64,000 bases of DNA from Archaeoglobaceae archaeon (GTDB lineage Archaea > Halobacteriota > Archaeoglobi > Archaeoglobales > Archaeoglobaceae). The DNA lies in the NCBI GenBank assembly GCA_027028145.1, contig JALVJV010000006.1:1-64000 (forward strand), read 5' to 3'. The stretch's first letter is position 1; each line of letters begins with the position of its first letter. Below, in pieces: positions 3,054-8,827 of the stretch. A program made the translations under genes and the position numbers. The notes under the pieces were generated by a model. The model saw only the letters and a program-made list of their open reading frames with translations. It made no database searches and was not told where the DNA came from.

Positions 3054-3290
3054 TCAACCACCACTGAAAGGCGGTAGCAAAGCGACGACGTCATCATCGT
3101 TCAACTTCCTGTTCAAATCGTCAACCTTACTGCAGTTTACAACGACCGTAACACGACTCAAGTGCGATCGAATTTCGGGATACATCTCAACCAGCTTCCT
3201 AAAAAGATCATCGATCGTATCTGCTCTTACTACGATCTCCCTTTCGCCGACGATTTCCCTAAGATTTGCGAACAATTTTACCCTCACCAT
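3054..3290 (-). CDS. MoaD/ThiS-family ubiquitin-like sulfur carrier protein
   Basis: A 78-residue beta-grasp protein ending in PPFSGG. The C-terminal diglycine is the hallmark of MoaD, the small subunit of molybdopterin synthase, and of archaeal ubiquitin-like SAMPs; both are activated by an E1-like enzyme at the terminal Gly. Sequence alone does not separate pterin-cofactor sulfur transfer from protein modification. A tungsten-type AOR is encoded at 15226-17070, so pterin synthesis is needed in this organism. The start overlaps the end of the beta-propeller gene by seven bases, which implies co-transcription. No MoaE or E1 gene is in the window. Confidence 0.85.
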   Translation of the reverse strand: MVRVKLFANLREIVGEREIVVRADTIDDLFRKLVEMYPEIRSHLSRVTVVVNCSKVDDLNRKLNDDDVVALLPPFSGG

Positions 3291-4174
3291 AGCTCCAAAT
3301 AACTCAAACTTTTTTCGTTCCCGACAAGCACGCCGGAATCACACAGCTTATATACCTTTCCGCCGTAAACCTTCTCATCGTTTATATAAACACCGTCGGA
3401 AGTCGCGATAGCAACCGAATCATCCAACATCTTGAGATCGAAAACGACGTTTTTGAGATCAAACGTTTTAACGATTTTACCGTTCAGATCGCATACGCTA
3501 ACCCTGTTCGACGAAGCAAAGGCAACGTAATCGCTATTTGCGGAAACTATCGGAGATTCCGCTCTTATCGACCAACCGAGGGTGCATAAGATCCCGTTAT
3601 CGTTAAAGAATACCGCCCAATCATCTACGACCAAAACCCCCTTAGACTTAAATTCGAACTCCCTTCTCTTTGGATAGACCACCACCGATCTACTACCGGT
3701 TCCAACCGCTAAGATATCGTCGAAATCCATGCTGATTACGAAATCGCCGAAATCCTCGCGATACACTTCTTCACCGTCTAAGCTGAATACCGATACCTTA
3801 TCGTTCATAAAACCGGAAACGACAGCCAACCCTTCTTCGGAAAGTCGAACAAACTTAACATCATCGGGTCTTTCCCAACAACTTAAAATCGAAATTCTCT
3901 GCCTTTTCCAAATCTCTCTTCCGTTTAGATCGAATACATACACCTTGCCATCAACGAAATCCGTCCCGACCGCAACGTATCCATCGCAAACGTCAACCGC
4001 AGTTACGTTGACGTCGTTAAAAGGACCCCTGTAATACGTGCCGATCAGCTTCTTCGACCATCTCAGTCCGCTGGAATCGAAGAGGAAAATCCAACCGCTC
4101 TCGCTACCGAAAGCGATGAAATTCCCGTCACATGATGAGCAGAGTATCGGATTGTCGAATCTGTAAGACCACAT
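3284..4174 (-). CDS. Beta-propeller (WD40/PQQ-like repeat) protein, function unknown
   Basis: A 296-residue protein made of repeated beta-strand units of the type 'VAVGTDFVDGKVYVFDLNG', each ending in an aromatic or hydrophobic, Asp, Leu/Ser, Gly turn. About six or seven blades are visible (for example DSSGLRW, DLNGREIW, SLDGEEVY, DLNGKIV). No signal peptide or membrane span is seen, so it is probably cytosolic and a protein-binding scaffold. I chose the ATG at 4174 because GTGATC, complementary to the 16S tail, stands four bases upstream. An alternative GTG start at 4183 would sit inside that site. It is paired with the MoaD-like gene. A role in cofactor biology is only a guess from position. 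Confidence 0.75.
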   Translation of the reverse strand: MWSYRFDNPILCSSCDGNFIAFGSESGWIFLFDSSGLRWSKKLIGTYYRGPFNDVNVTAVDVCDGYVAVGTDFVDGKVYVFDLNGREIWKRQRISILSCWERPDDVKFVRLSEEGLAVVSGFMNDKVSVFSLDGEEVYREDFGDFVISMDFDDILAVGTGSRSVVVYPKRREFEFKSKGVLVVDDWAVFFNDNGILCTLGWSIRAESPIVSANSDYVAFASSNRVSVCDLNGKIVKTFDLKNVVFDLKMLDDSVAIATSDGVYINDEKVYGGKVYKLCDSGVLVGNEKSLSYLELW

Positions 4175-4186
4175 AGAGATCACAAT

Positions 4187-4201: not shown

Positions 4202-5638
4202 TTAAACTCTTGGTGCCCACAGCGGTAGCTTTTGCCATGCTATTGGTCCGAACACGTAGACGCTGAGTATGAATCCGAGTATTATTACGATAGTAGCACC
4301 TATGAAGAACGCGGCCCAAGGTCTCGCACCGAACTTCATGAACTCCCTGAACCTCGTGGTCATACCGATGCTGAAGAACGTGAATATGAACGTCCACGTC
4401 CTCATCGTCTTTATGGGCCCTATCAGGTTCGGTTTCATGTAGTGCATGTATTCGTATGGACTGGCGCTCATCGTTATCAGGGTCATTACGAACGATGCAA
4501 GCAGGAATCCGATGACGAACTTCGGGAATCTCCACCAGATCTCCATTGCGGAAGGTCTTGCTCCCGATTCCTCTACTTCCCATCTCGTCGTTGCAACGAT
4601 CGCCATAACGAATGCCCAAAGCCCTATCCAGATGTCTCTACCTATGACTTTCATCAACGTATACGCCCATATCGTAAGCTCATGAGCGTCTGCGGCTATG
4701 TTGCCGATGGTAATGGTCGGAGCTACGTGCGTTGCATACCATTCACCATACCACTCCGCCGCGGCGAAACCCGCAGCGTCAGCGAATTCCGAAGTTCCGA
4801 TCCAAGCTCCGGCTTCACCGGGATGCATCTGTATGCTCATCGCTATCATTGGCAGGAGGAATATGGCAATTATTGCCGCAACGATAACAGCGGCTATTCC
4901 GAAAACGTAGTCCTCTTTCTTAGCCCTTACGGCAGCGGCCATTGCGATCGATGCCGAAACTCCACAGACCGCACACCCGGCACCAAGAACCGCGGAAGTT
5001 CTCTTGTCTATGCCGAGATACTGCCCGACGTAGAAGACGACCAAGAAAGCCGTTATCGCAACAGTTGCCGCCTGTGCTATGACGTAAGGACCAGCCATGT
5101 ATATCAACGTGAACGGCAAAGTTGCACCGAGCAGAACGATACCAGTTTTTATGTAGTATTCAACTCTGAAACCGTCGTCCATCCACTTGGGGAATCTGAA
5201 GACGTTGCTGAGAATCAATCCGAGGATGACGGCAAGGATCGGCGGCTCCAAGTTGTAGTTGTGAACCCACTTGTTTGCCGCAACAACGAATATTATAACT
5301 GAAACAACGTAAACGAATGTAAACGACGGCAGAAATGTCTTCACTCTGAATCCCAAGATTTTACTGCTTATCGTAAACACCACTGCCCAAAACAGGTAGT
5401 TTATGACGTAACCGAGCCAGTTCTTGGAGAAGTAATCGACCACTTGCCCCCATTCCGTCCATTTACCCGGCGCTGAGACGGCTAAGAGTTTTAGGAAGTC
5501 TATGTTCTTCGTGTAGTAGCAGTATAGCGCTATTCCTATGACGATGAACGCCATCCATACTGCCCACCAGTCCTCTGTCTTCCATAGCGTTTGCCATCCC
5601 CTGACTACTTCTACTCTCTCTTCACCCCCTTCAGCCAT
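4202..5638 (-). CDS. YeiH-family (UPF0324, PF03601) membrane transporter, long form
   Basis: A 478-residue integral membrane protein with about 11-12 hydrophobic spans. It has the YeiH family signature in GAGCAVCGVSASIAMAAAV followed by the charged RAKKEDYVFG. The family is annotated as putative sulfate/sulfite exporters; taurine-degrading bacteria use relatives to export sulfite. It is longer than typical family members (about 310-350): an N-terminal extension has an early span (VWMAFIVIGIALYCYY) and Trp-rich loops. The start at 5638 is chosen for AGGTGTG upstream; the in-frame TTG at 5653 lies beyond that site. A second family member is at 7815-8756, with a regulator between them. Substrate is not shown by sequence. 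Confidence 0.85.
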   Translation of the reverse strand: MAEGGEERVEVVRGWQTLWKTEDWWAVWMAFIVIGIALYCYYTKNIDFLKLLAVSAPGKWTEWGQVVDYFSKNWLGYVINYLFWAVVFTISSKILGFRVKTFLPSFTFVYVVSVIIFVVAANKWVHNYNLEPPILAVILGLILSNVFRFPKWMDDGFRVEYYIKTGIVLLGATLPFTLIYMAGPYVIAQAATVAITAFLVVFYVGQYLGIDKRTSAVLGAGCAVCGVSASIAMAAAVRAKKEDYVFGIAAVIVAAIIAIFLLPMIAMSIQMHPGEAGAWIGTSEFADAAGFAAAEWYGEWYATHVAPTITIGNIAADAHELTIWAYTLMKVIGRDIWIGLWAFVMAIVATTRWEVEESGARPSAMEIWWRFPKFVIGFLLASFVMTLITMSASPYEYMHYMKPNLIGPIKTMRTWTFIFTFFSIGMTTRFREFMKFGARPWAAFFIGATIVIILGFILSVYVFGPIAWQKLPLWAPRV

Positions 5639-5667
5639 GATTTCACACCTCAATATTTATTTAGATA

Positions 5668-5718
5668 ATGACAGAAAACTTATCGATGTTGACCCGAAAA
5701 TTGTCATATTGTGTCAAC
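5668..5718. promoter_or_regulatory. Interleaved inverted repeats upstream of the first YeiH gene
   Basis: Two inverted repeats interleave in the 101-base gap between the regulator's stop and the exporter's start: ATGACA (5668-5673) with TGTCAT (5702-5707), and GTTGAC (5688-5693) with GTCAAC (5713-5718). Each arm shares a GAC/GTC core. They lie upstream of the predicted exporter promoter and next to the gene for a DNA-binding regulator, so they are candidate operator sites. Confidence 0.4.
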
Positions 5719-5739
5719 TTATAATAAAATTTTATTTAA

Positions 5740-7833
5740 TTATTCAAATATTGCTTTACCTTCCTCCGTTATCTCTAAAACTTTAGATCTACCGTATTTT
5801 ACCAGATTAATAAGGCCTTTACTTTTTAAAAGCTTGACTCTCTTCTTTACGGTGTTCCTTGACAGTCCGAGTTCATCCATAGTGTCCTTTATGGAAGGTT
5901 TTTCGCCGACTCTGTTTTTCATGTAAACGAACCTCAGCAGTTCATACAGTTCGGGTTGCAGTTTGACCTCCTTCCTCTGCAAAGGTTCACATTCGATTCG
6001 TAGTAGGGAATACCGCCTACCGTCGAACACATCGGGTTTGGCAACGAGTATAAGAACTCCCCTCCTCAATATGTAAAAGTCCTCCCTTAATCTTTGAATC
6101 AGAGATAGGAGGGAGTCGAAGTCGACCTTCGTTATCAAGTAGTCGAGCTCAAGAATGACAACGTTGTTCTTCTCCGGAAGGTTGGACAGCACATCCTCGA
6201 TTACATCAACATCCGGCGGAATCGAATCCTTACTCTTTCTTTCCGATAACCACAGCACCCTGCTGTTCGTAACCCCGACATCCTCAGGCAACTTTCTCGT
6301 TATAATAGTCCCCTTGAACCCCATTTTCGTCATATCGGCTAAAACTTCCAGAGCTACATCCATGCTATCGGTAAGATACAACCGACCGATGTCAACCCTG
6401 TATTTAAGCATCCTTCTGATCATCTCCATCTCAGACCTAACCTTATGAGTGGCGTCTCTGGCTATTACGGAAATTCCCGACAACCGACCGTTCTCGATAA
6501 TCGGCGAAACTGTCACTTCGACATCTATTATCCTTCCGTCCTTGCACCTCCTCTTCCCGTCGAAGGATATGCTCTGCAGGTTGCTCCTTATCTTTTGAAG
6601 GATGTGTTCGGTTTCGCTCCGTAGACCTTCCGGTAACAGCTCTTTTGAGTCCATACCTATAGCCTCGTGTTTCTTCCAGCCGAAAAGTTTCTCGGCACCT
6701 TTATTCCAGCTCGTTATCTTTCCGTTGAGGTCTATCGAATATATGGCATCCTGCGAATTTTCGACTATGTTAGCCAAGTATCTGAGCTCGGACGTCTTCC
6801 TTTCGAGTTCTTCATACGCTTTCCTCAATTTTTCCTCGCTCTTTTTCTTTTCCGTGATGTCCCTCATTATAGCTACGAATCCAGTTAACTCTCCGTTTGA
6901 GTTGTAGATGGCGGTCAGAGTCTGGTCCACAACTATCCTCCTACCGTCTTTAGTCAGCCTTATCGACTCTATATCTCTCGCGTAACCTTCAATCACAGCC
7001 TTTCTGAAGTTCTCTCTGCAAAGCTCACGCATATCCTCCGGCATCAAAACCGTGAAGGGCTTACCGATCATCTCCTCTGCAGTGTATCCAAACATCGCCT
7101 CCGCTCCTCTGTTCCAAGATACGATATTACCATCGACATCCAAGGACACGATGGCATCTATCGTATGTTCGGTTATCGCCGCAAGGTGCGCCATTCTCTC
7201 TTCAGCTTTCTTCTTGTCCGTAATATCCCTACCGATCCCTATGTAACCCACGAATCTGCCGTTTTCGTGCAAAGGATTTAAATTGAATTCGAAAATTCTG
7301 TCAGCGATCCGTGCTTCGAAACTTAGAGATTTTCCGTTCGGATCGGGCGTTTCGCTTACGAGCTCTTTTAAATTAGTTCCTATTATCTTTACTTCGCCGA
7401 ATATATCGTAAGCCTTTGCGTTCGTGAAAGTTATGTTCAGGTTCTCATCGGTTTCGAACACCCAATCGTTTAAATTTTCGATTAGATTTCTATACTTACG
7501 CTCGGTTTCTCTTAAGACTCGCTCTCTTTCGATCAATTCCTTTGCTACTTTGTTGAAGAAGTTCGCAACGTCTTCGAACTCGTCTCCGGTGTTTATATTC
7601 ACCTGAACGAACTTTCCGTTCAGCAGATGATCGAAACCTACTCTCAGCCTTTCCAGAGGATCGGTTATACTACCCGCGAGGAATACGGAGATACCCAAGA
7701 TTATTATTAAAACGTATAGGTTGTATGCCAAGGCGTAATCGGATGGTAAATACTGTATCACGGAATACAGGGCGATCGTTATAACCGATATTATCAGGGA
7801 AGCAACGACGATTCTCAGGAATATGGACCCCAT
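5740..7833 (-). CDS. Membrane-anchored HAMP/PAS/DUF835 sensor with C-terminal winged helix
   Basis: A 697-residue one-component regulator. Residues 6-26 and 34-54 are two membrane spans joined by a loop of under ten residues, so no external sensor domain is present. A HAMP-like segment (about 55-105) follows, then three PAS domains (about 112-225, 235-345 and 360-475). Next is a DUF835 domain (about 490-620; FKGTIITRKLPED, VLWLSE, VVILELDYLITKVDF). The C-terminal winged helix ends the protein (IKDTMDELGLSRNTVKKRVKLLKSKG). No histidine kinase domain or receiver is present. The start at 7833 has GGTGAT just before it; the in-frame reading to 7875 is not needed. It overlaps the end of the upstream YeiH gene by 19 bases, so the two are co-transcribed. 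It probably regulates the flanking exporters; the signal is unknown. Confidence 0.85.
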   Translation of the reverse strand: MGSIFLRIVVASLIISVITIALYSVIQYLPSDYALAYNLYVLIIILGISVFLAGSITDPLERLRVGFDHLLNGKFVQVNINTGDEFEDVANFFNKVAKELIERERVLRETERKYRNLIENLNDWVFETDENLNITFTNAKAYDIFGEVKIIGTNLKELVSETPDPNGKSLSFEARIADRIFEFNLNPLHENGRFVGYIGIGRDITDKKKAEERMAHLAAITEHTIDAIVSLDVDGNIVSWNRGAEAMFGYTAEEMIGKPFTVLMPEDMRELCRENFRKAVIEGYARDIESIRLTKDGRRIVVDQTLTAIYNSNGELTGFVAIMRDITEKKKSEEKLRKAYEELERKTSELRYLANIVENSQDAIYSIDLNGKITSWNKGAEKLFGWKKHEAIGMDSKELLPEGLRSETEHILQKIRSNLQSISFDGKRRCKDGRIIDVEVTVSPIIENGRLSGISVIARDATHKVRSEMEMIRRMLKYRVDIGRLYLTDSMDVALEVLADMTKMGFKGTIITRKLPEDVGVTNSRVLWLSERKSKDSIPPDVDVIEDVLSNLPEKNNVVILELDYLITKVDFDSLLSLIQRLREDFYILRRGVLILVAKPDVFDGRRYSLLRIECEPLQRKEVKLQPELYELLRFVYMKNRVGEKPSIKDTMDELGLSRNTVKKRVKLLKSKGLINLVKYGRSKVLEITEEGKAIFE

Positions 7834-8756
7834 ACTATCACCATCAGGAATACAACGGCGAACGCACACACCCATCCAGCGTAAGCCGCTATAAGCGGAT
7901 CAAATCTCATGCGTTGTATGTCCTTCAAACTAACGGAGAAACCTACGGAAGCTAAAGTAATCGAGAACGCTATCGTGGAAATCGGTCTGAGTATGTTCAA
8001 AATGTCATCCGGCAGTATGTAGCTGGAGAAATACGATAAAACGAGAAAAGCCGCTATATACCACGGAACGTAATACCTGTGTTCGGAGTAGTATATGGAA
8101 GCCAAGAACGCAATTATCGCTATGAGGGCTATCCTAACACCCTTAACCTCAAGCGCGTTCTTAACCACATCACCGCCGAACGGCTTGGTAGCAATTTCAA
8201 CGAGACCGGCTTGATGCAGGGTTGCACCGCAAAGGAAAGCGTATCTATCTAAAGGTATGGAAAAAACGTGCGACAGGTATGGTAACACCAAAGCTCCGGT
8301 TAATCCCACAATCGTTATGACGATTATCGCAGTTGAAAACTCCTCTTTTTTTGGTTTAACGAGCGAAGCAACTATTGCTATTGCAGATGCTCCGCATATG
8401 GCGGATCCGCAAGCTAATAAAAAAGACAATCTTTTATTCAAATTAAATATTTTACTGCTGAAGAAGTATACGGAGACCCACAGCAGGAAAGCGGACAGTA
8501 TCGCAATTACGACGAGACCATGAGGTATACCTCTGCTTAACCTTATGTTGGCACCATACATGGCGATACCGATCGGCAGGGTTACGGACAGAACCTTTCC
8601 AGCGTATCTCTTGCAGTCCTCACTAAAGAAGCCGTTCGCGAATATTCCAAAAATGAGGGCGAGAAACAATGCGTCGAGCGGTGGGTAAAAAACGCTCATC
8701 AGGTAAGCCAGAATGCCGCATACGATTACCGCGATCGTTACCTTCCATTCGCTCAT
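7815..8756 (-). CDS. YeiH-family (UPF0324, PF03601) membrane transporter, standard form
   Basis: A 313-residue membrane protein with about ten spans and the family's usual length. The signature is ACGSAICGASAIAIVASLV followed by KPKKEEF, matching the equivalent region of the longer paralogue at 4202-5638. A second conserved block is CGATLHQAGLVEIATKPFGG. The family is annotated as putative sulfate or sulfite exporters. Two adjacent ATGs (8759, 8756) are possible; GGAGG ends just before the first, so the second has better spacing. A TATA-like element lies at about 8791-8800. The gene is first in an operon with the membrane-bound regulator, which it overlaps at the 3' end. Confidence 0.87.
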   Translation of the reverse strand: MSEWKVTIAVIVCGILAYLMSVFYPPLDALFLALIFGIFANGFFSEDCKRYAGKVLSVTLPIGIAMYGANIRLSRGIPHGLVVIAILSAFLLWVSVYFFSSKIFNLNKRLSFLLACGSAICGASAIAIVASLVKPKKEEFSTAIIVITIVGLTGALVLPYLSHVFSIPLDRYAFLCGATLHQAGLVEIATKPFGGDVVKNALEVKGVRIALIAIIAFLASIYYSEHRYYVPWYIAAFLVLSYFSSYILPDDILNILRPISTIAFSITLASVGFSVSLKDIQRMRFDPLIAAYAGWVCAFAVVFLMVIVWGPYS

Positions 8757-8827
8757 CATACCTCCTCAGCCCTATTTATAAGGCGGACTCCTTTAAATAT
8801 TGCGGTGACACTTGCACAGAAAATGGA

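Follow-up and report, generated by a model that had tools for sequence, protein, structure and literature searches.

A membrane-tethered PAS-DUF835-winged-helix regulator, its candidate operator and two PF03601 transporters in a conserved cassette of Archaeoglobaceae

Introduction

Little is known of how archaea that respire sulfate move sulfate and sulfite across their membrane, or of how they regulate this traffic. The window analyzed here, a 64,000-nucleotide stretch of the genome of a heat-loving archaeon of the Archaeoglobaceae, contains a regulator gene (REG) between two transporter genes (SHORT and LONG), which raises the question of what this regulator controls and which part each transporter plays. 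The initial annotation had read the locus as a likely pair of YeiH exporters with a dedicated sensor.

Organization of the locus

Pfam searches confirm the gene set of transporter, regulator and transporter, all encoded on the minus strand. The initial annotation did not describe PROP, which is included in the following list of features (window coordinates).

3284-4183, minus strand: PROP, a beta-propeller-like protein that follows type-A LONG (weak propeller matches)
4202-5653, minus strand: LONG, a PF03601 transporter, PSE_2-like, with about 97 additional N-terminal residues (Pfam, 157 bits)
5669-5673: TGTCA, an inverted copy of the array motif
5669-5685, minus strand: segment directly following the array on its downstream side, with the TGTCA above and a TATA-like stretch (CGATAAG), a putative promoter element judging by its position
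5686-5716, minus strand: triple direct-repeat array, TGACACAATATGACAATTTTCGGGTCAACAT, the proposed REG operator, between REG and LONG
5740-7875, minus strand: REG, with two transmembrane segments, a HAMP-like linker, three PAS domains, DUF835 (inactive KaiC-like) and a winged helix
7815-8759, minus strand: SHORT, a PF03601 transporter, PSE_1-like, 314 aa, overlapping REG (Pfam, 179 bits)
8790-8808, minus strand: CACCGCAATATTTAAAGG element upstream of SHORT, found by eye

Two of the gene starts deserve comment. REG likely starts at M15 (7833), because homology among the 27 aligned REG proteins begins at this residue of the window protein. With this start, the overlap of REG with SHORT spans 19 nt rather than 61 nt. 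LONG probably starts at the ATG at 5638. The CACCGCAATATTTAAAGG element, a probable part of the SHORT promoter, resembles by eye the CACCGCAATTTTTATTT found upstream of SHORT in three other loci (L053, L057, L058). The CACCGCAATWTTTA-like element common to the window copy (8790-8808) and these three loci may be SHORT's own promoter or another operator.

Both transporters belong to PF03601, scoring well above its cut-off of 24.5 bits, and count as members of the wider PSE family. A strict YeiH label does not apply, as SHORT (215.3) and LONG (88.6) both fall below the TIGR00698 (YeiH) cut-off of 232.6. The predicted structure of LONG (pLDDT 86.5) matches the fold of sodium-proton antiporters (NapA/NhaP), SbtA and PIN over residues of about 97-472 (Z 12-13.5). 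Sequence searches of the PDB with SHORT and with a LONG profile returned no matches.

Domain architecture and predicted fold of REG

Pfam places both the PAS domains (163.8 bits, in three stretches) and DUF835 (PF05763, 66.6 bits against a curated cut-off of 33.1) above threshold, in agreement with the domains first proposed. HTH_24 remains slightly under its cut-off (20.5 versus 21.9 bits). Two results nevertheless support a winged helix: the predicted fold, and a profile comparison with solved structures, in which the REG C-terminus matches A. fulgidus AF_1382 (E 4.6e-4). The 20 Pfam families listed for REG at E <= 0.1 include neither HisKA nor HATPase nor a receiver domain, in line with the kinase-free architecture originally proposed, and on this count REG does not belong to the two-component proteins. 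Paired N-terminal hydrophobic segments about 10 residues apart are found in 27/27 REG proteins, which bears out the two membrane spans with a tiny loop. The linker is HAMP-like in its position and pattern, and no Pfam HAMP appears among the reported matches. REG thus carries a transmembrane region and a DNA-binding domain in one chain free of phosphotransfer domains, as is characteristic of transmembrane one-component regulators.

For the module from DUF835 to the helix-turn-helix, structure prediction (mean pLDDT 83) yields a KaiC-like fold followed by a MarR-type winged helix. More specifically, the DUF835 part of the model matches FlaH (Z 14.0 over 140 residues) and also KaiC, and its end matches MarR/MntR-type DNA-binders (Z about 13 over 70-74 residues). 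With PF05763 above cut-off and a RecA/KaiC-like predicted fold, REG can be placed among the DUF835, inactive KaiC-like proteins. No Walker A motif (GKT/GKS) is present in REG residues 481-640, in line with the listing of DUF835 as an inactivated KaiC in the relevant part of an earlier study (PMC5847659). The RNT.Kkr residues in the recognition-helix region are strongly conserved. Further conserved positions, considered with a view to possible redox or heme sensing by the PAS domains, are W138, W254, W390, W400 and C629 (27/27 REG proteins), as well as H237 and C286 (23/27); they speak neither clearly for nor clearly against such sensing.

Conservation of the cassette across genomes

PF03601 is present in 34 of the 59 genomes of the class. 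We took 46 stretches around the PF03601 matches and mapped the relatives of the window genes, leaving out before counting a 131-aa REG fragment at a contig end (G022, L059) and partial PF03601 fragments. The linkage of transporter and regulator proved to be conserved, with 27 REG genes in 23 Archaeoglobaceae genomes. SHORT lies immediately upstream of 24 of the 27, and an intact LONG immediately downstream of 25. The two REG loci without an intact adjacent LONG are one at which the contig ends (L060) and one in which LONG is split into two overlapping frames of 204 and 324 aa (G001, L040, 5546-7068). This split is a frameshift or sequencing error, and the gene was kept out of the LONG gene counts while the genome was entered as LONG-bearing in the genome-level tables. 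REG was not found outside the Archaeoglobaceae: of 176 genomes searched across the phylum, 15 gave a match at 1e-20, all of them from this family.

LONG occurs in two types, type A (54-99% identity to the window LONG) and type B (about 28%). By a distance rule, PROP follows 15 of 17 type-A and none of 16 type-B LONG genes; in L036 it is present as well, its start having been called too early. In seven loci (L042, L046, L048-L051, L064), REG and type-B LONG are separated by a conserved protein of 75-78 aa, which has a single hydrophobic segment and an N-terminus resembling a zinc ribbon with four cysteines. In L041, a type-A LONG itself begins with a fused ribbon of similar kind.

SHORT is inherited with REG, while LONG is exchanged

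Among 43 high-quality genomes, SHORT and REG are both present in 19 and both absent in 24 (43/43 concordant). The only exceptions in all 59 genomes are G039 and G043, both incomplete. Pairwise distances within the 22 complete cassettes correlate closely between SHORT and REG (r 0.98), and far less between either of them and LONG (r 0.48). For type A, the SHORT-REG correlation is 0.993, against 0.848 and 0.875 for the two correlations with LONG; for type B it is 0.976, against 0.338 and 0.310. This pattern suggests that LONG is exchanged between its two types. Gene overlap and joint transfer alone might give a high SHORT-REG correlation. In genus g12, SHORT and REG are not adjacent, yet in 4/4 genomes the two share cassette relatives among their nearest. 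We ascribe part of the SHORT-REG co-evolution to overlap and joint transfer, with shared function as the simplest reason for the rest.

This bears on the proposed exporter pair. Two PF03601 transporters do accompany one regulator, but they are not alike: the operator array stands at LONG, SHORT tracks REG, and LONG is exchangeable. One could still picture two parallel sulfite or sulfate exporters under a redox- or sulfur-sensing regulator, with no sensory role for SHORT. Both proteins are PF03601 members, SHORT retains the core motif CGxSAI, which is conserved in its relatives, and YeiH alone confers sulfite resistance in Salmonella (PMC12880088). Such a scheme is at odds with the position of the array before LONG and not SHORT in almost all genomes, and with SHORT following REG, not LONG, in both presence and evolutionary distance. 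Furthermore, LONG occurs without SHORT in four dsrA genomes (G015, G017, G036, G038), while the only genome with the reverse is G022, in which contigs break off. We consider parallel exporters fairly unlikely. Since SHORT co-occurs and evolves with REG while LONG is exchangeable, SHORT is more likely the partner of REG than a spare exporter.

Association of LONG with dissimilatory sulfite reductase

With dsrA defined by E < 1e-80 (present in 33/59 genomes), LONG and dsrA occur together in 27 genomes, LONG alone in three (G004, G031, G056), dsrA alone in six (G016, G018, G021, G022, G043, G054) and neither in 23 (p 5.6e-8). The corresponding counts in high-quality genomes are 21, 2, 3 and 17 (p 3.8e-7). 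In genus g13, the cassette is present in one of two dsrA genomes and in none of the eight others. That LONG tracks dsrA supports a role in sulfur oxyanion transport. The suggested link to sulfur is further strengthened by Salmonella, where YeiH is the chief determinant of sulfite resistance and is controlled by YeiE, a regulator that binds sulfite (PMC12880088).

Alternatively, the ligand of LONG could be a carboxylate or a different divalent oxyanion, for instance molybdate, and the link of LONG to dsrA would reflect shared ancestry. In Desulfovibrio vulgaris, the PSE gene DVU0543, whose neighbors encode a histidine kinase and a response regulator, shows a molybdate phenotype, its loss being beneficial under molybdate (PMC10102598). 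The LONG model also matches the citrate carrier CitS (Foldseek). Against this, the dsrA association holds within genus g13, and molybdate is itself a sulfate analogue. We regard a ligand of this kind as unlikely.

In a scan of named genomes with the LONG profile, the best 80 of 578 confirmed relatives, at roughly 45-60% identity, come from Nitrospirota, Desulfobacterota, Gammaproteobacteria and others; the bacterial relatives include lineages that are not obviously sulfate-reducing, which speaks against a sulfur-oxyanion carrier. Within these 80, genes of one family, whose representative is a sigma-54 response regulator, lie at most three genes from LONG in 15 of the 72 loci with a parsed LONG, and the neighbors include Tll0287-HAMP histidine kinases. 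Taken together with the D. vulgaris experiments, these neighborhoods suggest that a dedicated sensor for LONG-type carriers is recurrent and that the regulators differ between bacteria and archaea. In six Nitrospirota loci (L110, L112, L118, L119, L143, L159), a conserved gene block on the opposite strand (clusters c8, c9, c10, c13, c14) follows LONG.

A candidate operator upstream of LONG

The array has the consensus TGACR-N5-TGACR-N7-TGACRAYAT, followed by the TATA-like stretch, and its TGACR sites are in phase, with spacings of 10 and 12 bp. The repeats first noted at 5668-5718 are real: with the consensus relaxed to fit the window copy, the window holds one match (5686-5716) where 0.05 are expected. 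We scored the 15 core positions over 660 bp around each LONG start, with 60 shuffles per locus. An array with at most 2/15 mismatches lies upstream of 21 of the 25 REG-adjacent LONG genes, whereas shuffles average 4 to 5; for 19 of the 21, 0/60 shuffles were as good, and for the remaining two, 1/60. Three of the four misses (L043, L053, L065) are spacing variants by eye. The fourth belongs to the first of the G020 cassettes (L058, REG at 7002), which lacks an array and counts against operator control of LONG. Eight LONG genes have no adjacent REG. Among them, L067 has an array by script, and L070 (G040) has a perfect one when scored from the corrected LONG start. Over all 33 LONG loci, a rank test of the raw script values gives p 0.0028, weakened in part by the mis-called start of L070.

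A whole-genome search, covering 47 of the 59 genomes, found 46 matches with at most two mismatches, compared with 14 for a reversed control pattern. At one mismatch or fewer, 21 of 24 matches lie upstream of LONG, and all 11 perfect matches do. The window's own genome has a single match, the window copy. The other three matches at this level lie upstream of SHORT in G014, before a secreted protein in G020, and in G026, a genome without REG, where the one-mismatch match is background. As G014 is the only genome with such an array before SHORT, autoregulation is not general. In genus g3, TGTCA repeats, the array motif reversed, stand upstream of SHORT (L049, L050, L051) and suggest autoregulation there. 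The G020 protein, preceded by a one-mismatch array at G020:C1:1636819-1636849 (L177/L178), has a Tat signal, a C_GCAxxG_C_C domain and CxxCH motifs, and resembles a split-Soret-type cytochrome.

The array follows REG, also in trans

A REG profile search of 17 genomes located the REG of G040 on another contig and also detected REG in G043; no REG ortholog was found by this search in G015, G017, G031, G036, G038 and G056. The array precedes LONG in 23/23 genomes with REG and LONG, compared with 1/7 with LONG and no detected REG (Fisher 1.2e-5, a value that overstates independence, the genomes being related). The one exception, G039, is 76% complete. In G040, the array stands at LONG although REG lies elsewhere, and the sequence after the G040 REG is free of it, as expected for an operator and a regulator that acts in trans.

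Because the array is coupled to REG, is kept when the two are unlinked and has nearly no other copies, we take it as very likely that REG binds the array and controls LONG. This fits the earlier idea that the regulator acts at the repeats, and likewise the notion of a dedicated regulator. The conserved array and its coupling to REG point indirectly to operator binding and regulation from the membrane.

Another protein could bind the array, with REG signaling to it from the membrane and not contacting DNA itself. REG is indeed membrane-tethered, and its C-terminal winged helix lies just under the Pfam threshold. The presence of the array follows REG even when unlinked, however, RNT.Kkr is conserved, and the predicted fold matches operator-bound MarR-type proteins, making a separate binder highly improbable. 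The array abuts the TATA-like stretch and might instead belong to a general promoter or to a global regulator independent of REG. We regard this as extremely improbable: each REG genome has about one copy, none of the 47 genomes searched has a perfect copy in another place, and the array is lacking from the LONG promoters of the six REG-less genomes.

A model for the cassette

As a whole, the locus is best explained as a self-regulated transport cassette, a reading that we consider probable. The N-terminal hairpin and HAMP-like linker of REG would take up a signal at the membrane, the three PAS domains and the inactive KaiC-like DUF835 would relay it, and the C-terminal winged helix would bind directly to the three in-phase TGACR sites immediately upstream of the LONG promoter. 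SHORT, whose gene overlaps REG and is co-inherited with it, would most likely serve REG as its partner in the membrane, letting it read transport or ligand. What REG regulates would be LONG, together with PROP for type A, and LONG itself would be an elevator-type sulfur-oxyanion carrier, most likely for sulfite or sulfate. Direct DNA binding, the identity of the sensing protein, the ligand, the sign of the regulation and the direction of transport are inferred in this model. Linkage, operator and regulator role are well supported by the comparative evidence computed here, namely the conserved cassette and array, the REG-array coupling including in trans, the co-inheritance of SHORT and REG, the dsrA association and the folds.

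We give a low probability to a more specific reading, in which SHORT and REG form a transporter-coupled sensor of sulfur-oxyanion supply that sets LONG expression from the membrane, and LONG is a main dissimilatory sulfate/sulfite carrier of the Archaeoglobaceae, possibly for uptake. Four dsrA genomes in which LONG occurs but SHORT and REG do not would fit, as would the high expression reported for AF1617-AF1619 (PMC3949148) and the benefit of PSE-gene loss under molybdate in D. vulgaris (PMC10102598). SulP transporters were not found in Archaeoglobus in a survey of sulfate transporters, which would fit as well; YeiH goes unmentioned in the part of that survey drawn on here (PMC5840216).

The cassette supplies a specific regulator and two transporters, along with a candidate operator of 31 bp that has one main target in each genome. 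If true, the model would provide a clear example, in archaea, of regulation from the membrane at an identified site, and DUF835 proteins would gain a plausible function.

Comparison with known systems

In the open-access literature searched, we found no prior description of the cassette. The AF1617-AF1620 genes of A. fulgidus presumably correspond by position to the REG locus of G001. AF1617-AF1619 are reported as multi-transmembrane and highly expressed, and a regulatory tie with the adjacent PAS gene AF1620, possibly an 'unknown regulatory complex', was suspected (PMC3949148). The arrangement of multi-transmembrane genes beside a PAS gene is the same as in the cassette; the relevant part of that report gives no further analysis. 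SHORT and LONG match PSE_1 and PSE_2, which have 9 and 11 transmembrane segments, the longer with two extra N-terminal helices; the family description, as far as cited here, mentions no pairing of the two with each other or with a regulator (PMC8396727).

In the YeiE-YeiH system of Salmonella, as in the cassette, a PF03601-family transporter has a dedicated transcription regulator, there in the context of sulfur stress. YeiE, in the portion of the work cited, is a soluble LysR protein that binds sulfite (PMC12880088), whereas the cassette has two transporters and, in place of a LysR gene beside the transporter, the membrane-tethered PAS-DUF835-winged-helix REG. The DVU0539-DVU0545 region of the sulfate reducer D. 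vulgaris likewise places a PSE transporter under adjacent signaling; its operon contains a kinase and response regulator and universal stress proteins in the accounts used here (PMC10102598, PMC3333781), in contrast to the one-component REG.

One-component regulation from the membrane is reportedly found in ArnR of Sulfolobus. REG shares this mode with the archaeal transmembrane transcription regulators treated in the relevant part of PMC10269533. It differs from them in that its membrane part is N-terminal and its DNA-binding part follows three PAS domains and an inactive KaiC-like domain, and in that a candidate site and target are defined for it here.
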